Shown here piece after piece: positions 17,501 through 55,031 of a DNA stretch of 55,677 nucleotides (its first letter is position 1; the number at the start of each line of letters is the position of its first letter). The translations under genes were made by a program, and so were the position numbers. The stretch comes from an uncultured Rhodospirillales bacterium (GTDB taxonomy: Bacteria; Pseudomonadota; Alphaproteobacteria; Acetobacterales; Acetobacteraceae): assembly GCA_903823665.1 (NCBI GenBank), contig CAIJTR010000015.1, positions 1 through 55,677 of the forward strand. Reading direction: 5' to 3'. A model generated the notes under the pieces. It was given only the letters and a program-made list of their open reading frames with translations, had not been told where the DNA came from and searched no databases.

Positions 17501-18280
17501 TCAGGCCTGGCGTTCGAGCATCAGCGTTTTGATCTCGCCGATGGCCTTGGCCGGGTTGAGCCCCTTCGGGCAGGTCTGCGTGCAGTTCATGATCGTGTGG
17601 CAGCGATAGAGCTTGAACGGGTCTTGCAGCGCGTCCAGCCGTTCGCCGGTCCGCTCGTCACGGCTGTCGGCGATCCAGCGATAGGCGGCCAGCAGCGTCG
17701 CCGGGCCGAGATAGCGATCGGAGTTCCACCAGTAGCTCGGGCATGAGGTGGTGCAGCAGAAGCACAAAATGCACTCCCACATGCCGTCCATCTTCGAGCG
17801 TTCTTCCTTCGACTGACGGCGCTCGCCATCCGGGGGCGCCGGCGTGTCGGATTGCAGCCATGGCTCGATGGAGCGGTATTGCGCATAGGCGTGGCTGAGA
17901 TCGGGCACCAGATCCTTCATTACCGGCATATGCGGCAACGGGTTGATCTTCACGTCACCCTTCACGTCGGCAATCGGTTTCAGACAGGCCAGCGTGTTCG
18001 TGCCGTCAATGTTCATGGCTCACGAGCCGCAAATGCCCTCGCGGCACGAACGACGGAACGTCAGCGTGGTGTCCACCTCGTTCTTGATCTTGACCAGCGC
18101 GTCGAGGACCATCGGGCCGCATTTGTCGAGATCCAGCTCATAGGTGTCCATGCGCGGGTTCTCACCGTCATCCGGATTCCAGCGGTAGATGCTGAAATTC
18201 TTCGGCTTCGCAGCGCCCGGTGTCTTGTGCGTCTTGCCCACTCCAACCTTGGAGTTCTTCGGCAGGGTGAATTCGGCCAT
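17501..18280 (-). CDS. sdhB: Succinate dehydrogenase iron-sulfur subunit with in-frame UGA at a [2Fe-2S] cysteine codon
   Basis: The full reading frame is 259 codons, the normal length. Codon 87 (18020-18022) is TGA. It interrupts the [2Fe-2S] motif as [24 protein letters not shown]. Relatives have Cys here, and E. coli SdhB is known to use Asp at this third ligand position. The rest is undamaged: [16 protein letters not shown] and [13 protein letters not shown] supply the [4Fe-4S] and [3Fe-4S] ligands. Possible explanations are a base-call error (TGC or TGT to TGA), a true nonsense mutation, or UGA decoded as selenocysteine or cysteine. An ATG two codons after the TGA could allow restart, but the split would destroy the cluster. 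Confidence 0.9.
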
Positions 18281-18293
18281 GACTCAGAATTCC

Positions 18294-20105
18294 TCAGTAA
18301 ACGCGCTTCTTCGGCGGGAACACCGACACTTCATTGGTCAGCGTCTGCATCTTCACCGGGCGATACCCCAGCGTGACTTCGCCCTTCTCATTGCACCATG
18401 ACAGCGTGTGCTTCATCCAGTTCACGTCGTCACGGTCCGGGAAGTCGTCATGCGCCTGCGCACCCCGGCTTTCCTGGCGGGCTTCGGCGGAGACCATCGT
18501 GGTGATCGCGTTGCCCATCAGGTTGTCCAGTTCCAGCGCCTCCACCAGATCGCTGTTCCAGATCAGGCTGCGATCCGAAATCTGCACATCGTCCAGACCG
18601 GCCCACAGCTTGTTCATCTTGTCCACGCCCTGCGTCAGGCTCTCGGAGTTGCGGAACACCGCCGCATGCGCCTGCATCGTGCGCTGTAGGCTGTCACGCA
18701 TTTCGGCAACCTTGGTTCCGCCCTTGGCGTTACGGGTGCGATCAAACCGGTCTAGCGACGCCTCACCAGCGCGAGCGGGCAGCGGGGCCTGCGACGCACC
18801 CGGCTTCAAAATTTCCGACGCACGGTGAGCGGCGGCGCGGCCGAACACCACGAGGTCGAGCAGCGAGTTGGTGCCGAGACGGTTCGCGCCATGCACAGAC
18901 ACGCAGGCCGCCTCACCGACTGCCATCAGGCCGGGCACAATTGCGTCCGGATCAGACGCCGTCGGGCGCAGCACTTCGGTGCGATAGTTCGTGGGAATAC
19001 CGCCCATGTTGTAGTGCACGGTCGGCAGCACCGGGATGGCTTCCTTGGTCACGTCCACACCGGCGAACACCTTGGCCGTCTCCGAAATGCCCGGCAGACG
19101 CTCATGCAGCAGGTCGGCCCCCAGATGCTCCAGATGCAGCAGAATGTGGTCCTTGTTCGGGCCCACACCGCGACCGGCATTGATCTCCAACGTCATCGAA
19201 CGGCTGACGACGTCTCGCGACGCAAGGTCCTTCGCGGTCGGCGCATAACGCTCCATGAACCGCTCGCCTTCGGAGTTGGTCAGATACCCGCCCTCACCGC
19301 GTGCGCCCTCGGTGATCAGGCAGCCCGCCGGGAAGATGCCAGTCGGGTGGAACTGCACGAACTCCATGTCCTGCGTCGGCAGGCCCGCGCGCAACGCCAT
19401 GCCGCCGCCATCGCCGGTGCAGGTGTGCGCCGAGGTGCAGGACAGATAAGCGCGTCCATAACCACCGGTCGCCAGCACCACGCTCTGCGCGCGGAAGCGG
19501 TGCATCGAGCCATCTTCCAGGCACCACGCCATCACGCCGACGCAGGCACCTTCCTCATTCATAATGAGGTCAAGCGCGAAGTATTCGACGAAGAACTCAA
19601 CCTCGTGCTTCAGGCTCTGCTGATACAGCGTGTGCAGAATGGCATGGCCGGTGCGATCCGCAGCAGCACAGGCGCGCATCGCCGGGGTCTTGCCGTAATC
19701 CTGCATATGGCCGCCGAACGGGCGCTGATAGATGCGGCCATCCTCGGTGCGGCTGAACGGCACGCCGAAATGCTCCAGCTCATAGATCGAGGGAGCAGCT
19801 TCGCGGCACATATATTCAATCGCGTCCTGATCGCCGAGCCAGTCTGAACCCTTCACAGTGTCATACATGTGCCAGCGCCAATCATCCTCGCCCATGTTGC
19901 CAAGTGCCGCACCAATGCCGCCCTGGGCCGCCACGGTGTGGCTGCGGGTTGGGAACACCTTGGTGATGCAGGCCGTTTTCAGCCCGGCAGCGCCCATGCC
20001 GAGGGTGGCGCGCAAACCGGCACCACCAGCCCCGACCACAACCACGTCATAGGTGTGATCGATGATGTTGTAGGCACCGAGCGACGGCTTGGTGAAGGCG
20101 TTCAT
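18294..20105 (-). CDS. sdhA: Succinate dehydrogenase flavoprotein subunit
   Basis: This is the 603-residue catalytic subunit of respiratory complex II, which oxidises succinate to fumarate and passes electrons to SdhB. The FAD-binding dinucleotide motif is [12 protein letters not shown]. The histidine that carries covalent FAD lies in [18 protein letters not shown]. Active-site segments [31 protein letters not shown] and REGGYL-like [10 protein letters not shown] are present. The length matches alphaproteobacterial and mitochondrial SdhA. The gene is 13 bp upstream of sdhB and follows sdhC and sdhD. Confidence 0.97.
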
Positions 20106-20130: not shown

Positions 20131-20532
20131 TCAACCGGCCAGCGCCAGCTTCAAAATCGCGACAAGCGAGGCGATGGCCAAAAGGCCAGTCGCACCCTTC
20201 ATCGCCAAAATCGAGGCAAGACGTGTACGTTCGTTATGGATGTAGTCCTCAATCACCACCTGCAACCCCAGCGCCATGTGATGAAAGGTGATCAGCACGA
20301 GAGCGATCAGCAGAGTGGCGTTCACCGGGCTCGAAGCCCAGGTGGCGATTGCCGCGCGTGGCACGCCGATCAGTTTGTACATCACCAGAATAAACCAAAG
20401 TGTTAACGGCACGAGTGCGACGGACGTCACGCGCTCCGCCCACCAATGCGCCGTGCCGGATTTCGCGGAGCCAAGACCACGCGCACGGCCCAGGCCGGAA
20501 CGCATGATGGTCTGTGTCTGATGCTCTGCCAT
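20131..20532 (-). CDS. sdhD: Succinate dehydrogenase membrane anchor subunit
   Basis: This 133-residue membrane anchor has three hydrophobic segments ([52 protein letters not shown]). The family signature [17 protein letters not shown] supplies a haem-ligand histidine and the ubiquinone-site region. [16 protein letters not shown] is typical of the alphaproteobacterial SdhD N-terminus. I start at the ATG behind GAGGGG. Only 12 bp separate it from sdhC. Confidence 0.93.
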
Positions 20533-20544
20533 GTTCAATGCCCC

Positions 20545-20976
20545 TCAGACGACCACAAAGCCGATGAGCCAGGTCAGCACCGTCAGCACGCCGGTTGCGA
20601 TCAGCACCAGCTTGCCGGTGGCATGAACCTCAGACAGTTCAAAGCCATAGCCGCTGTCCCAGGCCAGATGGCGAATGCCGGCGCAGAAATGATACCAAAG
20701 GGCCGCGGTCCAGCCGAACAGCACCAAATGGCCGAGCCATGTGTGCACCACCGCCGAAACCGTGGCGAACGCACCATCAGAGGTTGCCGCCGCCACCAGC
20801 CACCACACCAGCAACAGCGTACCCGCCGAAAGCGCACAGCCGGTGATGCGATGGAAAATGGAGAGAGCCGACGTGATCTGCGGCTTATAAATCTGCAAAT
20901 GCGGCGACATCGGGCGCCGGACGGTTCGTCCATCGGTGGTGTGCCCGATGAAAATGGCTTCACGAACGTCGGTCAT
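20545..20976 (-). CDS. sdhC: Succinate dehydrogenase cytochrome b556 subunit
   Basis: This anchor subunit of about 143 residues has the SdhC signature RPMSPHLQIYKPQITSALSI, followed by HRITGCALSAG, and then three membrane helices. A haem-ligand histidine lies in HFCAGIRHLAWD. The start is uncertain. I chose the ATG giving MTDVREAIF; a GTG 16 codons earlier or the ATG before SPHLQ are alternatives because no strong ribosome-binding site is visible. It is the first gene of sdhCDAB, about 96 bp after the SMR gene on the same strand. Confidence 0.9.
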   Translation of the reverse strand: MTDVREAIFIGHTTDGRTVRRPMSPHLQIYKPQITSALSIFHRITGCALSAGTLLLVWWLVAAATSDGAFATVSAVVHTWLGHLVLFGWTAALWYHFCAGIRHLAWDSGYGFELSEVHATGKLVLIATGVLTVLTWLIGFVVV

Positions 20977-21072
20977 GTGATGGCTTGACTCCGCCAGATG
21001 TTGGGCATGTGCATAGACCTGCACTGTGACGTGGTCAACGCAAGTGCAGCATGACTGCCTGCGGAGCGAAGC

Positions 21073-32473: not shown

Positions 32474-33712
32474 ATGCCCATCACCCGCGACGAATTGCTG
32501 GCATTGGACGCAGCCGACCCGTTGGCCCCCATGCGCGCGCGCTTCACGCTGCCGGACGGCGTGATCTATCTCGACGGCAACTCCCTCGGTGCCCTCCCCC
32601 GCGCCACCGCCGCCCGCGTGGCCGAGGTGGTGACGCGGCAATGGGGCCAGGGCCTGATCCGCAGCTGGAATGACGCCGACTGGATCGACATGCCCAACCG
32701 CGTTGGCGACAAAATCGCGCGGATCATCGGTGCCGCACCGGCCAGCGTGATGGTAGCCGACAGCACCAGCGTGAACCTGTTCAAGCTGCTTTCAGCCGCC
32801 CTGAAGCTGCGTCCGGGAAGGATGACCATTCTGTCGGAAGCCGGAAACTTTCCAACCGACCTCTATATAGCGGAGGGGCTCCGCGATCTGCTGGAGCAAG
32901 GCCACCGGCTGGAGACCGCCACGCACGACGAAATCATGGCCCGCATCGGCGATGATACCGCAGTCGTGATGCTGACCCATGTGAACTACCACACCGGGCG
33001 GATGTTCGACATGGCAGCGATCACTCGCGCGGCCCACGCCAAGGGCGCGTTGATGCTGTGGGATCTGGCCCATTCCGCCGGTGCCGTGCCGGTTGACTTG
33101 GCGGCCCGTGATGTCGATTTCGCGGTTGGCTGCGGCTACAAATACCTCAACGGTGGCCCTGGTGCGCCCGCATTCCTCTACGTGGCCCCTCGCCTGCAGC
33201 AGAGCGCATGCTTTCCCATCACGGGGTGGCTTGGCCACGCGGCACCTTTTGCCTTCGAGCCCGGCTACCGCCCCGCATCCGGCATTCAGCGTGCCCAGGT
33301 TGGCACGCCACCTGTGATCAGCCTCTCCGCCCTCGACGTGGGTGTTGATCTGGCACTTGAAGCCGATATGGCCGCAATACGCCACAAATCCGTTCAGCAG
33401 ACGACGATCTTCGCCGAACTGGTGGCGCAACAATGCGTGGGCCACGGCCTGCGGCTCGTCTCGCCGACCGAGGCAGCCCAGCGCGGCAGCCAGGTTTGTC
33501 TGGCGCATCCCAACGCCTACGCCATCATGCAGGCGCTGATCGCCCGCGGCGTGATTGGAGACTTCCGAGCGCCGGATGTGCTGCGCTTCGGCATAACGCC
33601 GATGTATTTGCGATATGTCGAGCTTTGGGAAGCTGCTGTCATCTTGCGTGAGGTAATGGAGTCGGAAGTGTGGCGGGACGCCAAATTCATGAACCGACAA
33701 AAAGTCACATAA
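32474..33712 (+). CDS. kynU: Kynureninase
   Basis: This 412-residue PLP enzyme of the aminotransferase V fold cleaves kynurenine to anthranilate and alanine. YLDGNSLGALPR is the family N-terminal motif, VMLTHVNYHTGRMFDM and WDLAHSAGAVPVDL hold the cofactor Asp, and the Schiff-base Lys is in GCGYKYLNGGPGAPAFLYV. CAGGAG stands six bases before the ATG. No kynA or kynB genes are adjacent, so the rest of the tryptophan degradation pathway must be elsewhere. The DNA turns abruptly AT-rich after the stop. Confidence 0.95.
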   Translation: MPITRDELLALDAADPLAPMRARFTLPDGVIYLDGNSLGALPRATAARVAEVVTRQWGQGLIRSWNDADWIDMPNRVGDKIARIIGAAPASVMVADSTSVNLFKLLSAALKLRPGRMTILSEAGNFPTDLYIAEGLRDLLEQGHRLETATHDEIMARIGDDTAVVMLTHVNYHTGRMFDMAAITRAAHAKGALMLWDLAHSAGAVPVDLAARDVDFAVGCGYKYLNGGPGAPAFLYVAPRLQQSACFPITGWLGHAAPFAFEPGYRPASGIQRAQVGTPPVISLSALDVGVDLALEADMAAIRHKSVQQTTIFAELVAQQCVGHGLRLVSPTEAAQRGSQVCLAHPNAYAIMQALIARGVIGDFRAPDVLRFGITPMYLRYVELWEAAVILREVMESEVWRDAKFMNRQKVT

Positions 33713-33858
33713 CTTAAAATTTACATACAGATCTAAAAATTACTCTAACAACTCTCTAAATAAACTTCTCGTGTGCTGGGAGAAAAAACCGCGAAAAAAC
33801 AGTCTATTTGCTGGTAAACTCAAATTATAGATGCTTTTTTTAGAGTTGAGTATGGCTT

Positions 33859-34641
33859 ATGTCGATCTTATCGCACTTGGATGATCCCTTGATGTCAATC
33901 AACCGAAGCCTTCCCAGCGCTATGCCTATGACTGTTATAAGCCCGTTCATGCAGGACCCGACCCGGCTGATGCCGGAGCCGATGAAGCACGGACGGCCGC
34001 ATGAGACGACGCTGGACTGGTTTGCCACCGCGGAACGCGTTGGCCGTACTATCGACCTTGACGCCTCCGCCCATGCTCATGGGGCCATGTTACGCCGTCG
34101 CGGCGTGCCGTCGGCCACCAATCTGTTGTGCCTGGCGTTCCTGTACGGTCCTGCCCGAATGCCGCTCCGCCTGATCGCCGAACGCGCGGCAGCCACCGGC
34201 ATTGCAAAGGTCAGCGAGCCCGCGTTGCTGCGTCGTTTGATGAATGCCACGCCCTGGCTTGAGCATTTGGCCGATACGCTGATCGTTCAGCAACTTGACC
34301 GGATCGGCGGTGCCAACGGACGTGGAGCGGAAGTCGTGAAGTTGCGCAGCAGCATGCCCCTGACCGGTGGCCCGTTCGCCTCAATGCCGCTTTATGACCA
34401 CCGGGTGCGGATGGCCAACGCCGCCAAACGCTTCATCATTGATTTTGAGCCCTGGCCGCTCGACCTGTTCTCCGACGCCCAGGTGCATTGGCTGCTCTGT
34501 GTCCGATGGACCTATGTGGCCTCGTCCCTCAAGGAAGGACCACTGGCGCGCATCGACAGTGATCCGAATCCGGCGACGTTGCTTGAGACGTCACGTCAAA
34601 TGGCACAAATGATCGCGGCTGCTGTCTCCCGCGACAACTGA
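33859..34641 (+). CDS. IS4-type transposase N-terminal-domain protein lacking the catalytic domain
   Basis: The 260-residue product has a stretch from about residue 50 to 150 (DWFATAERVGRTIDLDASA, GAMLRRRGVPSATNLLCLAF, PLRLIAERAAATGIA, PALLRRLMNATPWLEHLADTL). It follows the N-terminal helical domain of IS4-type transposases common in Acetobacteraceae. Those proteins continue into a DDE nuclease domain. Here the frame goes instead into about 100 unrelated residues and stops, with no DDE residues in context. Flanking inverted repeats are not visible. The intact reading frame, own terminator and long AT-rich leader suggest a retained, possibly regulatory, protein rather than debris. The start is uncertain; ATGs lie 11 and more codons downstream. 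Confidence 0.6.
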   Translation: MSILSHLDDPLMSINRSLPSAMPMTVISPFMQDPTRLMPEPMKHGRPHETTLDWFATAERVGRTIDLDASAHAHGAMLRRRGVPSATNLLCLAFLYGPARMPLRLIAERAAATGIAKVSEPALLRRLMNATPWLEHLADTLIVQQLDRIGGANGRGAEVVKLRSSMPLTGGPFASMPLYDHRVRMANAAKRFIIDFEPWPLDLFSDAQVHWLLCVRWTYVASSLKEGPLARIDSDPNPATLLETSRQMAQMIAAAVSRDN

Positions 34642-35463: not shown

Positions 35464-36180
35464 ATGATCATCGGTTACGCCCGCCTGCCCGCCACATCCG
35501 ACCTCGCCACCATCGACCAGACGCGCCAGAAGCTGATTGAAGCCGGTGCGGAGCAGGTTTTCATCGACACCGATCCGCGCTGGGGCGCGCCGCCCTTGCC
35601 ACAGCCACATGGGCGTGACGCTGCGATTGGCGCGTGCGCCGCGGGCGACGTGCTGCTGGCACTTTCGGCTGACCAGATCGCCGCATCGGTGCGCGACCTG
35701 ATCACCACTGGCGAGCGCCTGACCGCCAATGGTGCCAGCCTTCGCGTCATGCACGTGCCGGGCCTGCAGGGCCTGGACACCGGCACCCCGCAAGGTGCCA
35801 CCATGCTTGGCACCCTCGCTTTGCTGGCTGCCTTCGAGCAGCCTTCCGGCCATAACGGGCTGTTTGGCCTGCCGATGAACAACACTGTCCATGCACAGTC
35901 CCGCCATACCGGCTTTGCCAGCATGATGAGCAGCGACCAGATGACGGTGCGCCGCCCACGCGGCCGCCCGCCGACCGCAACCACCCAGGCAGACGAAATC
36001 AGCCGCCTGCGCGCATCGGGCATGCGGGCGACGGACATCGCCGAACGCCTCAAGATCTGCCGCGCCTCGGTCTATCGTGTGCTCAACCTGACCACGCCGG
36101 AAACCACCCCCAGCTACGCCCCGGCACCGTCGGTTGACCGTGTGCAGGACCGTCCGCGCGTGAGCGTTGCCGCGGAATGA
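35464..36180 (+). CDS. Serine-resolvase-like DNA-binding protein without active site (paralogue 1)
   Basis: This 238-residue protein is laid out like a Tn3-type resolvase. The N-terminal domain begins IIGYARLPATSD, where active resolvases have GYARVST, so the catalytic Ser is Pro. The DRLGR block reads ADQIAAS, losing both catalytic arginines. A linker leads to a well-kept C-terminal helix-turn-helix (RRPRGRPP, then MRATDIAERLKICRASVYRVL). It should bind DNA but not recombine it, so a regulatory or architectural role is likely. It is convergent with a similar gene at 36425-37126, with a terminator and a palindromic repeat between them. Confidence 0.75.
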   Translation: MIIGYARLPATSDLATIDQTRQKLIEAGAEQVFIDTDPRWGAPPLPQPHGRDAAIGACAAGDVLLALSADQIAASVRDLITTGERLTANGASLRVMHVPGLQGLDTGTPQGATMLGTLALLAAFEQPSGHNGLFGLPMNNTVHAQSRHTGFASMMSSDQMTVRRPRGRPPTATTQADEISRLRASGMRATDIAERLKICRASVYRVLNLTTPETTPSYAPAPSVDRVQDRPRVSVAAE

Positions 36181-36239
36181 CTGCGATCGATTGATGTCGA
36201 TTGGGTGAGCGTTGCCCCTAAAATGGCGGAATGGATAAA

Positions 36240-36278
36240 AAGACGCGACAGGATGAGAACATCCGGTCGCGTCTTGTT
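36240..36278 (+). terminator. Hairpin terminator after resolvase-like paralogue 1
   Basis: Perfect 10-bp arms AAGACGCGAC and GTCGCGTCTT enclose a 16-base loop that itself contains GGAT/ATCC. A-rich sequence lies on the left and TTGTTCCTT on the right, so it can act on both strands. It lies 60 bases past the stop. Confidence 0.75.
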
Positions 36279-36317
36279 CCTTAAAGTAATGTCAATTTTC
36301 TTAAACTAACTTTGTTG

Positions 36318-36406
36318 GACGTCGCGGCCAAGTTGCTCTAGAATCATACATTTCTAGAGCACGAACTTTCGACCAGTTGATTCCATCTGGTCGAAACGTG
36401 CTCTAG
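36318..36406. repeat. Composite palindromic element, family A, copy 4
   Basis: A degenerate half of module X (GTCGCGGCCAAGTTGCTCTAG) and the usual AT-rich spacer are followed by the only complete module Y, 36354-36406. Y is 53 bp bounded by CTAG, with arms CTAGAGCACG...TTTCGACCAG and CTGGTCGAAACGTGCTCTAG. It lies in the middle of the gap between the two convergent resolvase-like genes. Confidence 0.85.
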
Positions 36407-36424
36407 CGCGCCACTCTCAGCAGA

Positions 36425-37126
36425 TCACATTACGCGGGTGGTGGCCGAACAGACGATACGACCCTGGTCCGGCATTTCGGTGCCGGACACCTGATTGAGG
36501 ATGCGATAGACCGAAGCCCGGCCTATTCCCAGATGCGCCGCAATCTCGACGGCACGCAGGCCTTGAGAACGCAGACGGGTCACTTCACGCGCCTGCAGCA
36601 CCGCCGTGGCAGGCCGGCCGCGCGGGCGAGCCGGAAGAAGGTTCGCCATGGCCGGCGGCGGCGAGCCGACCCAGTGCGCCTGCACCGGGTTGTTGGCGAC
36701 AGGGTTGCTCACGGCAGGGCTGGTCACAGCAGGCACAGCCGTCGCAGCAACCGAGGTTACCTGCGGTGGCAGAGCACTCATCACCGCAAGCGCGCCCAGG
36801 ATCGCGCGGCCCTCAGCGGTGGCGGTGTCGAGCGGCATCCCACCTGCTAGCCGCAGCACGCGCAAATGCGCCCCACGGGCCTCCAGCCGCTTATGAATGT
36901 CCAGCAGAGACACGATCGAGCGAGCCATCATGTCGACGCAGGGGCTGACGAGCGTGTCACCGGCATTGATCTCGGCCAGAGCTACGTCAAGCTGAGGCGT
37001 CGCGGCTCCACCCAGGTCAATGTCGACGAACATGCGCTGCACACCGCACGCAATGAGCTCGTTGCTTGGCTCAGACATTCCGCTCGCCACCTGTGTCACG
37101 GCAAGATTGAGATAACCGATCAGCAT
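36425..37126 (-). CDS. Serine-resolvase-like DNA-binding protein without active site (paralogue 2)
   Basis: This 233-residue protein is paralogous to the gene at 35464. Its start, MLIGYLNLAVTQV, has lost the catalytic Ser and the neighbouring Arg of GYARVS. The DRL block reads PCVDMMARS. After an Ala/Val/Pro-rich linker comes the same C-terminal module (ARPRGRPATA, then LRAVEIAAHLGIGRASVYRIL). The most conserved part between the two is GRP plus the helix-turn-helix, so selection appears to act on DNA binding. The ATG follows AAGGGGC; a TTG one codon earlier is less likely. Its upstream region is AT-rich. Confidence 0.75.
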   Translation of the reverse strand: MLIGYLNLAVTQVASGMSEPSNELIACGVQRMFVDIDLGGAATPQLDVALAEINAGDTLVSPCVDMMARSIVSLLDIHKRLEARGAHLRVLRLAGGMPLDTATAEGRAILGALAVMSALPPQVTSVAATAVPAVTSPAVSNPVANNPVQAHWVGSPPPAMANLLPARPRGRPATAVLQAREVTRLRSQGLRAVEIAAHLGIGRASVYRILNQVSGTEMPDQGRIVCSATTRVM

Positions 37127-37585
37127 CAAAGCCCCTTATCTACCGCACCCGCCGCTATCTGGCGGACTTCACGACAGGCAACACCAAGCTGTGGACAAAA
37201 TGTCCAACCACTTGAAAACATAACATGTGATTAACATTACGCAAACGGAGTTGTCACGACAAGGAAAAACAGACAGTGCCTTGCCCGCCCGCGGCCACAT
37301 CAAAAAACCTCTGATAGACGCAACGTTTTACACCCAAGGTGATTTTTAAGACGTTGAAATATATACGTATTTCAACAATCGGAAGTGAATATAGTTGCGC
37401 CATACTACTGCGTAATGAATTATACCTATTTAGAATAGGTAGGTAGCGCCTAATTAACGATCAATTGTTGCTGCTATTAATTAATAGACAGTTAATTAAT
37501 GTCAATGACAATTCTATACCTTCATTTGAAGCATTCTTTCGATGACAATTTCGTTTTCACATGCGAAAATGTATGCATTGAGAAC
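37127..37585. other. AT-rich divergent intergenic region (about 460 bp)
   Basis: No convincing gene lies here. The region separates resolvase-like paralogue 2 (leftward) from the orphan gene at 37586 (rightward). It is strongly AT-rich, with many AATTAAT-type stretches and an imperfect direct repeat TACGTATTTCAAC/TATTTAGAATAGGTAGGTAG region. It should contain promoters and possibly binding sites for the helix-turn-helix proteins. Confidence 0.45.
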
Positions 37586-38322: not shown

Positions 38323-41151
38323 TTACGACCCGAGCTTGAGCAGGTGAGCCGCAAGCCCCTCGCCCGCCACGACGTGATTGGCCTGGAAGCCGAAGCCAAC
38401 CGAGCCGCCAGCTGCCAAGCCACCGTTATATCCCGCGTCATTGATGAGGTAGGTGCTGCCGACATGGGATACGATGGTGCCGTTCCACAAATTGGTGATC
38501 TGCTCAGTGGTATCCAACTCCACCTCCCAGCCCGACGTGCTCGTTGCACCATTGTTGGTCACCGTGACCGAAGCGACAAGCCCCGTGCCCCAATCGTTGC
38601 CCACACTCGCCACGGCCGCCCCGTTCGGACCGGTTGAGGAGGCCGGGGGTGGTGTCAGAGTTGGCGTGGGCGTGGGCGTGGGTGTTGGAGCCGGGGCCGG
38701 CGTAGGCGTCGGGGCAGGAGCCGGCGTGGGAGCCGGGGTCGGCGTCGGAACAGGCACAGGAGTAGGCGTCGGAGTAGGCGTCGGAGTAGGCGCTATCGAC
38801 GAGGTTGCGCCTGACAGCGTTGCGCTGCCCTCAGACACCGAGATGCTTGCCCCCTGGCTTCCGGCGATTTGCAGGAAGAACACGTCGCTGGCATTGTTGG
38901 TGCTTGGGTGCAGCAGCTCCACTTTGACATCCGCCGTCGTCTGACCAGCGGCAATCACCACTGATTGAGACAGCGCCTGATAGTCAACGCCCGCCTTGGC
39001 CGTGCCATCGACCGTCTGCACCTGCAGCGTCACCGGCGAGGTTGATGCCTGTGACAGCGTGACCGTGAAGTCCGCTTCGGCCGGCCCTGAGCCAGTTGCC
39101 GTAGCACCCTTCCACAAAGCCGGGGCCAGGGCCTCGATCTTGGCCTGGTTCACGGTCGTCCAATCACCCAGCACAATGCCGCCGGTGTCGTTGCTGTCTG
39201 GGTTCCAATCCCAGTAGCCCCAGCTGACAGGTTGCTGCGGCACCGCAGCCGAGCCACTGCCCGCCGTGGCGTTGCCGGCCAGATACTGCACCAGCGTGTT
39301 CATCCAGGTTTGATCGCCCGGATTGGTCAGCGTGGCACCGAACTCACCGACGAAGATCGGCGCGATGTTGTTCTGTTCGATATAGCCCCAATCCTTGGTC
39401 CAGTTCGCCGCGTTCATCGCCGTATTGTCATCGGCAGGGTTGGTGGTGACGCTGGTTGGGTAGACATGCGGCGAGTAGACCAGCTTGTTGGGGTCGGTCA
39501 GCACCACCGGGTTGGTGGCAACGCCGGTAAGGTTACCACCCCAGGCGGTGGAGACGCCGTTGTTGTTCTGCACACCCTCAACCATGATGAGAGCATCAGG
39601 GTTGACCTGTTGGATGGCATCGCCGGTCGCTTGCGCGGCCATCTGCCAGTCGGTCGCAGCATTGCCCGAGCCCCAGGTCGCCTGACCATGCGGCTCATCT
39701 TGCAAGTCGAAGCCAACCACTGTCGAGTTTCCGGCGTAGTGCTGCGCCAGGTTTACCCAAGCATTGGTGAAGTCCTGTGACGAATAGCCATTGTCATACC
39801 ACAAACCATCCGAGTTTGGCCCGCCAATGCCATTGGCGTTGTGGCAGTCGAGAATGACCTTCAGGCCAAGCTTGCCTGCTTCATTGACAATTTTATCGAG
39901 CACCTGCTGCGAGTTCAGGCCCTTGAGATCTGGGTTGAGAGTGTAGTCGATGGCGTCCGGAATGCTGGTTGGGCTCAGAGATTCCAAGCTGAACGGGATA
40001 CGGATGGCGTTGAAACCAAGCGAGACCATCTGCTGCATGGTTGACTGGTAGCTGACCGTGTCGAGACCCTGCGGTGCTGCTTCGCTGGTTTCCATGCCGA
40101 ACCAGTTGATGGCGTTGATGACCACCGACTGGCCCTGGCTGTCCACAATCGTGCCGCCGCTGGTGGAAAGGTAGCCGGAGGGCAGCAGCGTGCCTGGGCC
40201 GGCGGCCGCAAAACCGCTGCCGATCGTTGCATTGCTGATACTGGCACCGGGCAGCGCTGGAGGCGGCGTGGGAGTGGGAGTGGGAGTGGGAGTGGGGGAC
40301 GAGGTCGGGGTTACCGGCGCGGCACCGCTCGTCAAGGCGGAGTCGTTCACGACGATATTCGTCGGTGCAACAATTGGTGAGTTGTTGCTCGACACCCAGC
40401 CAATGGTGGCGGGCGAGCCAGCCGACACTGTCTGGTTATAGCCAACATTGGTCAGAGTGTAGACGTTGCCCACGTGGCTCTGAATGTTGGCGCCCCAGAT
40501 GTCGGTGATGTTGTCCGATGATGTGAAGCTCATCGTCCAGCCGTTCAGCGACCCAGTGCCGGTTTCGGTGATCGCGACGTTCGCCGTGTAGCCGTTGCCC
40601 CAGTCATTCACGTCGGCAAACGAAACACTCAGACCCGAGCCGTTGCTTGCCAACGATGATGGCAGTGTCGTCGCGGTCGAAGTCGGAGTGAGGCTGGGTG
40701 CCGGCGTGGGCGCGGGTGCCGGCGCGGGTGCCGGCGTGGGTGTCGGCGCGGGTGCCGGCGAAGACGTCGGAACGACCACGGGCGCGACGTCGCTGCTCAG
40801 CGTGATGCCGTTCACAATGAACTGCGTGGGTGCAACCACCGGGGCAGTGTCATTCGCCACAAATCCGATCGTGGCGGGGGCACCGGGGGACACCGTCGCA
40901 TTATAGCCCGCATTGCCGATCACGTAGACGTTGCCCACGTGGCTCTCGATCTGGGCACCCCAGATGCTGGTGATGTCGTCCGCCAGGGTGAACGTCATCG
41001 TCCACCCATTCAGCGGCGCTGCACTCCCCGAACCACCGGTTTCGGAGATGGCCAAACTGGCTGTGTAACCATTCCCCCAATCGTTGATGTCCGCAAAGGA
41101 CACTCCGAGCCCGAAAGGGTTGGTCGCAAGCGAGGATGGTAGAGCAGACAT
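38323..41151 (-). CDS. Modular GH5 cellulase with three CBM2-like modules and a Calx-beta domain
   Basis: The 942-residue product has these domains in order. A CBM2-like module (1-125; NGWTMTFTLADDITSIWG), a Pro/Thr/Ala linker, a second CBM2-like module (168-278) and a linker come first. The GH5 catalytic domain (about 325-680) has acid/base E486 in LQDEPHG, nucleophile E603 in VGEFGAT, and H437 and H562. A Calx-beta domain (about 688-785), a long linker and a third CBM2-like module (845-930) follow. It should be an extracellular endo-beta-1,4-glucanase. There is no signal peptide: the protein begins MSALPSSLATNP directly after a good CAGGAG site, so export must use a signal-less route such as type I secretion, which is inference. 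Confidence 0.9.
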   Translation of the reverse strand: MSALPSSLATNPFGLGVSFADINDWGNGYTASLAISETGGSGSAAPLNGWTMTFTLADDITSIWGAQIESHVGNVYVIGNAGYNATVSPGAPATIGFVANDTAPVVAPTQFIVNGITLSSDVAPVVVPTSSPAPAPTPTPAPAPAPAPTPAPSLTPTSTATTLPSSLASNGSGLSVSFADVNDWGNGYTANVAITETGTGSLNGWTMSFTSSDNITDIWGANIQSHVGNVYTLTNVGYNQTVSAGSPATIGWVSSNNSPIVAPTNIVVNDSALTSGAAPVTPTSSPTPTPTPTPTPPPALPGASISNATIGSGFAAAGPGTLLPSGYLSTSGGTIVDSQGQSVVINAINWFGMETSEAAPQGLDTVSYQSTMQQMVSLGFNAIRIPFSLESLSPTSIPDAIDYTLNPDLKGLNSQQVLDKIVNEAGKLGLKVILDCHNANGIGGPNSDGLWYDNGYSSQDFTNAWVNLAQHYAGNSTVVGFDLQDEPHGQATWGSGNAATDWQMAAQATGDAIQQVNPDALIMVEGVQNNNGVSTAWGGNLTGVATNPVVLTDPNKLVYSPHVYPTSVTTNPADDNTAMNAANWTKDWGYIEQNNIAPIFVGEFGATLTNPGDQTWMNTLVQYLAGNATAGSGSAAVPQQPVSWGYWDWNPDSNDTGGIVLGDWTTVNQAKIEALAPALWKGATATGSGPAEADFTVTLSQASTSPVTLQVQTVDGTAKAGVDYQALSQSVVIAAGQTTADVKVELLHPSTNNASDVFFLQIAGSQGASISVSEGSATLSGATSSIAPTPTPTPTPTPVPVPTPTPAPTPAPAPTPTPAPAPTPTPTPTPTLTPPPASSTGPNGAAVASVGNDWGTGLVASVTVTNNGATSTSGWEVELDTTEQITNLWNGTIVSHVGSTYLINDAGYNGGLAAGGSVGFGFQANHVVAGEGLAAHLLKLGS
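38641..38793. repeat. Low-complexity Pro/Thr linker tract in the cellulase gene
   Basis: Imperfect 6-bp repeats (GGCGTA, GGCGTG and GGAGCC types) encode about 50 residues of alternating Pro, Thr and Ala between the Calx-beta domain and the last CBM2-like module. Such tracts can expand or contract in frame by slippage. Confidence 0.85.
40252..40317. repeat. Low-complexity Pro/Thr linker tract between CBM2-like module 2 and GH5
   Basis: The tract has perfect repeats of GGAGTG on the plus strand, five in a row near 40267-40300. They encode Thr-Pro dipeptides of the flexible linker before the catalytic domain. Confidence 0.8.
40672..40779. repeat. Low-complexity Ala/Pro linker tract between the first two CBM2-like modules
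   Basis: GGCGCGGGTGCC-like 12-bp units are repeated and encode Ala-Pro-rich linker residues 125-160. The unit differs from the Thr-Pro tract next to the catalytic domain. Confidence 0.8.
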
Positions 41152-51774: not shown

Positions 51775-52275
51775 ATGCCCGATGACGCCACACGGTCCCG
51801 GCAAACGTTCCTGCCCCATATCGACCAACTGCTGAAATCGTTGCGCATCACGCGCGAACGACTGTCGAGCCGCTCCAAAATTGCGGTCGACACCCGTCTG
51901 CTTCGTGCCTTGCTGCAATCGCTGGCGGCACAGGCACCGTTCGATCAGGAATTCTACCTGAAGGCGAACCCGGATATCGCAGCGGCATTCCGCGCCGGCC
52001 AGATCCCTGATCTGCACGTGCATTACATCGAAAACGGCTACTTTGAAGGCCGCGCCTGCGCCCTCCCGCTTGTGGACGAGGTTTTCTACGCCAAATCCTA
52101 CCCGGATATTGGGGTCGCCATCAGCCGCGGTGAGATCAGTTCCGCCACTGAGCATTATGCCCAATCCGGTGCCGCCGAGGGCCGCATTCCAAGCGAGGCC
52201 ATGCGGGCGGAAATCGACCGTTGGGCCGCGGCCTTGGCGGACGATCAAACCGGCCGCGCGCCGGGTGCTGCTTGA
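51775..52275 (+). CDS. Repeat-containing protein of the polysaccharide cluster
   Basis: This 166-residue protein has two copies of a ~38-residue unit: FDQEFYLKANPDIAAAF...HYIENGYFEGR and VDEVFYAKSYPDIGVAI...HYAQSGAAEGR. This unit is often found beside or fused to glycosyltransferases. No catalytic residues are visible. Its TGA overlaps a TTG that opens the next, much larger frame, which continues with further copies of the same unit. The two may be coupled genes, or one gene split by a frameshift. Confidence 0.65.
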   Translation: MPDDATRSRQTFLPHIDQLLKSLRITRERLSSRSKIAVDTRLLRALLQSLAAQAPFDQEFYLKANPDIAAAFRAGQIPDLHVHYIENGYFEGRACALPLVDEVFYAKSYPDIGVAISRGEISSATEHYAQSGAAEGRIPSEAMRAEIDRWAAALADDQTGRAPGAA

Positions 52276-55031
52276 TCGGCGAACTGCAGCGCGCCCACCG
52301 GCTGCTCTGCTCACGCTTCGTTGACGAGGACCGGTTTCGCGCAGCGTTTGGTGCCTCTCGCGCCGACATGAACGCAATCCTGGGATATCTCCGGCTGCCG
52401 GTGGGCAACAGGCCGCTGGTATCGGCGTTCTTTGACGCTGCATACTACAGCGCCCTGAATGCGGATGTACTTGCAAACGGTGATGATCCGCTCTTGCACT
52501 TCATCGAAACGGGCATCAGCGAACTGCGCTCCCCGCATCCACTGATCGATCTGCGATACATTCATTCGACCGACCCGCTGGTTCTGGGTGATACGCCGGA
52601 TGTTGATGCGCTGATGGACGTGCTCGAATACGACCTGACCAGCCCCAGCCCGTATTTCGACCTCGATTATTACGGCGCGCAATTCGCAGCCGTGGGCGGC
52701 GAGCCCGCACCGCAAGGTGGGATGCTGCGGCACTTCCTGCAAAAAGGTGCTTCCAGCGGGCACAAGCCGAACGCGTGGCTTGATCCGGATTATTACGCGA
52801 ACGCCTATGACGACGTGCCGTCGGATAAACTGGGTGCCACGCTGCATTTCATCATTCTCGGCGACGCTGAGATCCGCAATCCCGGCTTGGATTTCAATGC
52901 TGATCTGTATTGCCGCCGTTATACCGATATCGCCGATAGCGGCATCCCGCCGTTGCTGCATTACATTCTCTTTGGCCGCGCCGAGGGACGCCAGGCGACA
53001 GCGGAAAAGCCGGTGCCGCAAGGCCGCGCCGTGGCTGGGCACGCATTGCCGGTGGGTCGCCCCCTGCCCGCCGATGCCGCAACCCTGGTCGCCGCCGACA
53101 CCGACATGCGTGCCCGCGTCGCTGCGGCCCGGCAAATCCGCAAGGATGGCGTGCGGGCGACGCCACCCGAACTTGTGCTGCTGCCAGACCTATCGGAAAT
53201 GCGCTTCTCCGACACGCCAACGCCGCATGTTTCGGTGCTGATCCCGGTCTATAACGAACTCGACGTCACAATCTCCTGTCTCGCCTCACTTGACGCCGCC
53301 AATTTGGGCGATCTGTGTGAGGTGATCGTGGCGGATGACTGCTCGACTGACCCCGACATCGCCGATCTGGCGAGGGTTTCGAACCTCAAAGTCATACGCC
53401 ACGCCGAGAACCTCGGCTTTCTGCGCTCGTGCAACGCCGCGTTCGCGCAGTGCCGGGGCGAATATGTGCTGCTGCTGAACAACGACACCGAGGTTCTGCC
53501 CGGTGCCATCGAGGCGATGGTGGCCGCATTGGATGCGGACGCAACACTCGGTGCCGTGGGCCCCATGCTGCTCTACCCGAATGGGCGGCTGCAGGAAGCC
53601 GGTTGCTTCGTGAAGCCGAACGGTGAGACCGGGATGGTCGGCCTGTTCGATGACCCCGATCAGCCCGCTTACAACCGGGATCGCGATGTCGCGTATTGCT
53701 CCGGGGCCGCGCTGCTGCTGCGCCGCAAGCTGATTGACGGCGCGCTGTTCGACGAAATCTATCGACCGGCCTATTGCGAGGATGTCGATCTTTGCCTGCG
53801 CCTGCGCTCGCAGGGCCACCGCATCGGCTATGTCCACTCGGCTCGCGTGGTGCATCACCTCAGCGTATCGTCGAACGCTGCCGGTATTGGGCGCAAGCTG
53901 CGTGGCATCGCGAAGAATCAGCAGACGCTGATGGCGCGCTGGGGCGACATGATCCGCAAACTCGATGAGGTGCGGGTGCTTGCGTTCTATCTGCCGCAAT
54001 TTCACCCCACGCCGGAGAACGATCTGTGGTGGGGCGTGGGCTTCACCGAATGGCGCAACGTAACCAAGGCCCAGCCGAGCTATGTGGGGCATTATCAGCC
54101 ACATTTGCCCACCGATCTGGGCTTTTATGACCTGCGGCAGAAAGACACGCTGATGGCACAGGCCGCCCTTGCCGCCCGCTACGGCGTCGAGGGCATGGTG
54201 TTCTACCACTACAATTTTGGCCAACGCCGCTTGCTGCATCGCCCGTTGCAGGTGCTGCTGGAAAACCCCGATATCGCCATGCGCTTCTGCCTGTGCTGGG
54301 CCAATGAGAACTGGACCAAGCATTGGGACGGCGGCACGCGCGAAATGCTGGCTGAACAGCTCTACGACACCGCCACGCTGGGCTCGGTGATTGCAGACTT
54401 CGTTGATGCCGCCTCAGACCCACGCGCTATCACCGTGGACGGCAAGCCAATGTTTCTGATCTATCGCCCGCTGAAGATTCCGGACCCGAAAGGCTTCACC
54501 GTTATGTGCCGCGAAGCCTTCGCAAAAGCTGGGTTTGAGGGCGTGCATCTGGTCTATGTGGAAAGCATGGAGGCGGTGGACGCCAAAATCCGCCCAGCCG
54601 ACATTGGGTTCGATGCCGCTGTTGAATTCCCACCGCATGGCAGAGCAGTGCCGTGTGAGGACAGCCCCGACGTGATCAAGGAAAAATGGGCGGGCTATCG
54701 CTACGATTATCCGCAAACCGTGCTCGGCTTCACCGCGCGCGACGGCGTGGATTACGCGCGCTACCCGGCGGTGTTCCCAAGCTGGGACAACACAGCGCGA
54801 CAGCCGGAATATGGCAGCAGTTTCGACCGCGCCTCCCCCGAGGCATTCCGTGTCTACGTTGAGGAAAAAATCGAGGAAATCCGGGCATTCCATGACGGCG
54901 ATCACCGGCTGCTGTTCGTGAACGCATGGAACGAATGGGCCGAGGGCGCGCATCTTGAGCCGGACACCGGCTATGGCCATCGCTGGCTCGAAGCGTTGCG
55001 CTCGGCCGTTGAAGCAAAGCGTGTGGCATGA
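52272..55031 (+). CDS. Repeat-GT2-GH99-like (WbsX) fusion protein
   Basis: This multidomain protein has about 919 residues. The first ~270 residues contain about four degenerate ~38-residue units (FDAAYYSALNADV...HFIETG, LDPDYYANAYDDV, FNADLYCRRYTDI...HYILFGRAEGR). A GT2 domain follows (VSVLIPVYNELDVTISCLASL, DDCSTD, LLLNNDTEV, YCEDVDLCLR). The C-terminal ~380 residues are a WbsX/GH99-like domain (VLAFYLPQFHPTPENDLWWGVGFTEW, FVNAWNEWAEGAHLEPD). It likely builds a polysaccharide on the cytoplasmic side. No clear ribosome-binding site or ATG is seen; I take the TTG overlapping the previous stop (TTGA). A frameshift relative to the preceding gene is possible. Confidence 0.8.
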   Translation: MIGELQRAHRLLCSRFVDEDRFRAAFGASRADMNAILGYLRLPVGNRPLVSAFFDAAYYSALNADVLANGDDPLLHFIETGISELRSPHPLIDLRYIHSTDPLVLGDTPDVDALMDVLEYDLTSPSPYFDLDYYGAQFAAVGGEPAPQGGMLRHFLQKGASSGHKPNAWLDPDYYANAYDDVPSDKLGATLHFIILGDAEIRNPGLDFNADLYCRRYTDIADSGIPPLLHYILFGRAEGRQATAEKPVPQGRAVAGHALPVGRPLPADAATLVAADTDMRARVAAARQIRKDGVRATPPELVLLPDLSEMRFSDTPTPHVSVLIPVYNELDVTISCLASLDAANLGDLCEVIVADDCSTDPDIADLARVSNLKVIRHAENLGFLRSCNAAFAQCRGEYVLLLNNDTEVLPGAIEAMVAALDADATLGAVGPMLLYPNGRLQEAGCFVKPNGETGMVGLFDDPDQPAYNRDRDVAYCSGAALLLRRKLIDGALFDEIYRPAYCEDVDLCLRLRSQGHRIGYVHSARVVHHLSVSSNAAGIGRKLRGIAKNQQTLMARWGDMIRKLDEVRVLAFYLPQFHPTPENDLWWGVGFTEWRNVTKAQPSYVGHYQPHLPTDLGFYDLRQKDTLMAQAALAARYGVEGMVFYHYNFGQRRLLHRPLQVLLENPDIAMRFCLCWANENWTKHWDGGTREMLAEQLYDTATLGSVIADFVDAASDPRAITVDGKPMFLIYRPLKIPDPKGFTVMCREAFAKAGFEGVHLVYVESMEAVDAKIRPADIGFDAAVEFPPHGRAVPCEDSPDVIKEKWAGYRYDYPQTVLGFTARDGVDYARYPAVFPSWDNTARQPEYGSSFDRASPEAFRVYVEEKIEEIRAFHDGDHRLLFVNAWNEWAEGAHLEPDTGYGHRWLEALRSAVEAKRVA

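Follow-up and report, generated by a model that had tools for sequence, protein, structure and literature searches.

An in-frame TGA at a conserved cluster cysteine codon of sdhB in an uncultured Rhodospirillales bacterium: most likely a sequencing error or an inactivating mutation of very recent origin

The closest described counterpart of the locus considered here is mitochondrial-type SdhB, the iron–sulfur subunit of succinate dehydrogenase (NCBIfam PRK05950 / TIGR00384 dhsB; PDB 1yq3_B and relatives). A preliminary description of this DNA stated that the third ligand of the [2Fe-2S] cluster is Cys in mitochondrial-type proteins and Asp in E. coli. This is right: the five solved mitochondrial SdhB chains with printed alignments, out of 25 chain sequences matched, have Cys here, and the corresponding residue of E. 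coli K-12 SdhB is Asp63 (GAC). Bacterial selenoproteins in which UGA replaces a Cys codon offer a second comparison, and they include [2Fe-2S]-binding members of the CopZ family, which are tabulated in the available part of PMC9312934. Judged by titles and abstract openings, none of the papers listed in a literature search reports a selenocysteine-containing succinate dehydrogenase. A term search likewise found ‘succinate dehydrogenase’ absent from the main text, as far as available, of the selenoprotein reviews PMC13188914 and PMC9312934. Selenolate ligation of the cluster would have been a first for complex II. Finally, there are the point pseudogenes and consensus errors of draft genomes, with which the locus shares a single isolated stop, a conserved gene, restriction to one assembly among those read, and no decay.

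The locus lies in a window of 55,677 nucleotides (the whole stretch of DNA analysed), and its features are the following.

17501..18280, minus strand: sdhB, succinate dehydrogenase iron–sulfur subunit, interrupted by one TGA; both pieces match NCBIfam PRK05950, dhsB and Pfam Fer2_3
18020..18022, minus strand: the in-frame TGA, third [2Fe-2S] ligand codon (Cys in relatives, Asp63 in E. coli)
18020..18280, minus strand: N-terminal open reading frame of 86 aa, ending at the TGA (ORF reading)
17501..18016, minus strand: C-terminal open reading frame of 171 aa, opening at an internal ATG 3 nt past the TGA (ORF reading)
18294..20105, minus strand: sdhA, intact, 603 aa (ORF, Pfam and congener comparison)
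20131..20538, minus strand: sdhD-like membrane subunit gene, intact (Pfam and congener comparison)
20545..21024, minus strand: sdhC-like membrane subunit gene, intact (Pfam and congener comparison)

Reading of the minus strand from 18280 to 17504 bears out the previously described sdhB of 259 codons, intact but for a single in-frame TGA at 18020-18022, and the normal terminator is a further TGA at 17501-17503. The interrupting triplet is codon 87. Both halves of the protein match the mitochondrial-type family, and the gene clusters with those for SdhC, SdhD and SdhA, which lie just upstream. The expected domains, Fer2_3 and a C-terminal 4Fe-4S dicluster, are also present. For SdhB one uninterrupted reading frame would be expected, whereas here Fer2_3 is divided by a TGA at the very codon that specifies Cys in the relatives read. 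The source genome (4.54 Mb in 211 contigs, 97.69% complete, 0.15% contaminated) contains one sdhB match. A search for a second copy had been proposed earlier; at E <= 1e-3 the paralogue search found neither a second sdhB nor a fumarate reductase subunit in this genome.

Alignment of close relatives at codon 87, another check proposed at the outset, gives TGC or TGT in every sequence read. All 30 relatives examined as whole genomes have a Cys codon (TGC in 27, TGT in 3), among them the seven congeners, which uniformly carry TGC. The same holds for 80 of 80 loci on named contigs (67 TGC, 13 TGT), a set that comprises the best 80 of more than 580 candidates and overlaps in part with the whole-genome set. 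UGA at this site is thus shared by none of the relatives in either set. Within the genus, sdhB was found in 8/8 genomes (the G007 copy is partial), and only the source genome has the stop. A family-wide search matched sdhB in 353 of 397 genomes; among the 150 matches listed, 149 are free of stops and the source genome alone has one TGA. The remaining 44 of the 397 gave no match, so some members of the family tolerate the loss of sdhB. Such genomes without a match number 38 among the 331 with completeness of 90% or more and contamination of 5% or less. Of the 20 unmatched genomes listed, several are about 2 Mb in size and 98–100% complete.

Selection on the codons after the TGA was estimated as dN/dS, with the TGA site left out. 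For the source genome, comparison with its two most similar congeners (G002 and G004) gives 0.020 and 0.028, and comparison with two further congeners (G006 and G001) gives 0.061 and 0.068; seven congener pairs without the source genome range from 0.036 to 0.103. The source-genome values therefore fall within or below the range of the other pairs, and relaxed selection is not seen. Relative to six congeners, one residue downstream of the TGA and two upstream of it are private to the source genome. The low dN/dS indicates that selection preserved the frame up to the very recent past, which rules out an old pseudogene and means that any real stop would be young. Such conservation is compatible with an error, with a nonsense allele of recent origin and with recoding. 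The position of the stop is itself unremarkable: leaving the site aside, 88 single-base changes would create a stop in sdhB, 12 of them at Cys codons (about 1 in 7), and a random stop at a Cys codon of this gene is consequently not rare.

Rather than a new kind of protein, the in-frame TGA most likely reflects faulty sequencing or a mutation that inactivated the gene very recently. Both were among the explanations proposed in the preliminary description and both stay in play, whereas the selenocysteine reading offered beside them is contradicted. Together, base-call or assembly error and nonsense mutation hold nearly all of the probability. An isolated difference of one base turns a conserved Cys codon of sdhB into TGA, and this TGA is not a signal for recoding. 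Among single causes, an error in the assembled consensus is the likeliest, either a miscalled base or the base of a minor strain. We infer error rather than a real allele with a probability of about 0.5. This reading is favoured because the stop is limited to the source genome among the 150 matches listed, because sdhB is present once and shows no decay, because all eight genus genomes have the gene, because sdhA, sdhC and sdhD are intact, and because no other neighbouring pair of scanned window ORFs looks like one divided gene; no difference was found between the locus and the point pseudogenes and consensus errors known from draft genomes.

Two points weaken the case for error: the tolerated loss of sdhB in the family, and the fact that no other interrupted gene was noticed in the window, so that errors are not widespread in the assembly. 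Coding frames of sdhA, sdhC, sdhD and the neighbours recognised in congeners are free of stops. Of 55 window ORFs picked by a script, 40 (or near equivalents) were scanned in Pfam, and among neighbouring pairs of these only the sdhB pieces match complementary parts of one family. Some of the ORFs picked may lie on the wrong strand, for example 32795-33700, whose congener match is on the opposite strand.

Should the base be correct, translation would end at codon 87, leaving a fragment of 86 aa and no functional complex II. A real and very recent nonsense allele of this kind, carried by the strain or population with complex II lost or very low, is a serious candidate to which we give somewhat less than an even chance. 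The sdhB frame is otherwise clean, and the family genomes that gave no sdhB match are in keeping with loss of the gene. Mutations of sdhB also recur in long-term stationary E. coli cultures, where they became fixed in subpopulations and were interpreted as the result of positive selection; the fixed sdhB allele tabulated in the available part of that study is, however, a missense change, M107I (PMC7858067). Against a nonsense allele stand the unrelaxed selection after the TGA, the lack of any detected paralogue to take over, the retention of the gene in all eight genus genomes and the intact remainder of the operon; such an allele would have to be very young. If it were real, the strain would be living without a normal complex II.

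Translation past or beyond the stop is a far weaker proposition. A suppressor or near-cognate tRNA might insert Cys, Trp or another residue at the UGA, or translation might reinitiate, giving a working SdhB in two pieces; we consider this very unlikely. Slightly less credible still is the related view that a real TGA does not prevent synthesis of the downstream half, which would arise through readthrough or through reinitiation at the ATG, and that complex II operates with a [2Fe-2S] domain broken or altered at the third ligand. Split SdhB proteins do exist in Euglenozoa. The ATG 3 nt after the TGA, the conservation of the codons that follow and the Asp found at this site in E. coli also count in favour. 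However, the ATG encodes a Met that is conserved inside the SdhB of congeners and is therefore not an adaptation, and the break falls within the [2Fe-2S] ligand loop, with loss of a ligand.

The decoding apparatus also argues against readthrough. Anticodons were read for all 46 tRNA genes found in the source genome, and none is the UGA-reading UCA; the earlier suggestion that UGA is read as Cys is thus left without a UGA-decoding tRNA among the 46, and no suppressor tRNA is found there. The tRNAs Ile-gat and Ala-tgc, which would be expected, are absent from this set, so the assembly is incomplete. One tRNA-Val was given the anticodon AAC by ARAGORN (C123, 123-194, minus strand), which seems unusual for a bacterium and could be degenerate or miscalled. 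Release factor 2 is present: the prfB match is over cut-off (C102, about 33560-34597) and has, just downstream of an AGGAGG, the customary site for programmed frameshifting, CTT TGA C, a sequence arrangement that speaks for ordinary termination at UGA. The in-frame TGA flagged in prfB lies 12 bases before the GAC of that stretch, in the other frame and upstream of the shift, and therefore does not support recoding. The preliminary description was also correct that UGA serves as an ordinary stop here, and with TGA ending 6 of the 8 genes checked and prfB present, global recoding is ruled out.

UGA as selenocysteine, providing a selenolate ligand to the [2Fe-2S] cluster, has a negligible probability. 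The likeness to true selenoproteins is real, in that an in-frame UGA stands at a conserved cluster Cys with a strongly constrained frame beyond it, and the CopZ-family proteins provide a [2Fe-2S] precedent. The differences are that no selA match was found, that selB and selD stay below cut-off, that no tRNA-Sec is confirmed, that no discriminating bSECIS element is present and that UGA occurs in none of the relatives read.

The preliminary description had pointed to a hairpin at the UGA, TCGTG..CC with GG-CACGA and a 12-nt loop. When a 61-nt piece is folded, the minimum-energy structure does contain this hairpin. The piece is nevertheless no more stable than shuffled sequence (z = 0.03; 93 of 200 shuffles are as stable or more so), and the hairpin encloses the UGA instead of following it. 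The 63 nt from the UGA onward have a minimum-energy fold of -14.7 kcal/mol (z = -1.26; matched by 25 of 200 shuffles). The 7-nt loop of this fold begins 37 nt after the UGA, at the edge of the bSECIS constraints published in PMC13188914, as given in the available part of that review. The bSECIS search suggested earlier was run with our own implementation of these constraints, in a loose form that allows an interrupted stem and a strict form that demands a contiguous 4-bp upper stem. The site passes the former and fails the latter. Background codons often pass both (944/1517 loose, 534/1517 strict), so the test does not discriminate; compared in register, three of six congener sites, all Cys codons, pass the loose form and none the strict. 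The RNA fold after the UGA is no evidence for or against selenocysteine. Rfam gave nothing at E <= 10 over 301 bases around the site.

The search for selA, selB, selC and selD, likewise proposed earlier, is what contradicts the selenocysteine reading, in a genome 97.69% complete. At E <= 1e-3, selA was found in 0/8 genus genomes, the source genome included. No genus genome has selB over cut-off, although sub-threshold matches occur in 8/8; the source genome has seven, of which the best is CysN/CysC and the other six are unnamed. For selD, again 0/8 are over cut-off, with matches in 7/8; the source genome has two sub-threshold ones, the better being ThiL and the other unnamed. The tRNA-Sec model exceeds its cut-off in 7/8 genus genomes, which by itself favours selenocysteine, but these matches were named in the source genome only, where ARAGORN identifies both as tRNA-Ser (cga and tga). 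The remaining 12 matches there are sub-threshold and sit on tRNAs with read anticodons, 150 of 726 first-look candidates having been scored. With this scope, and with some tRNAs missing from the assembly, the lack of a tRNA-Sec is strongly indicated but not absolute. In some Rhodospirillales, tRNA-Sec genes are nested within selB, according to the available part of PMC8124441; a nested gene is unlikely to have escaped here because no selB was found. The formate dehydrogenase alpha model gave seven matches, none over cut-off and none with internal stops.

An isolated stop at a Cys codon can therefore imitate a selenoprotein, and the useful discriminating test is the selenocysteine machinery. 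The selA search is able to detect selenocysteine users, since it exceeds its cut-off in 97 of 394 family genomes; the distribution is patchy across the family, as opposed to 0/8 in the genus. Four of these selA-bearing relatives (G047, G169, G211 and G243) carry TGC at the sdhB site, which is further evidence against selenocysteine there.

Elsewhere in the window, 30 of the 40 scanned ORFs match a Pfam family and 10 match none. Two resolvase-type recombinase genes on opposite strands, with about 250 bases between them, occupy 35464-37129 and suggest a mobile segment. A 942-aa protein encoded at 38326-41151 has matches to a GH5 cellulase domain, a Calx-beta domain and CBM2. A 936-aa protein at 52221-55028 combines a family-2 glycosyltransferase with a WbsX domain; rhamnose-type sugar genes lie within a few kb of it.
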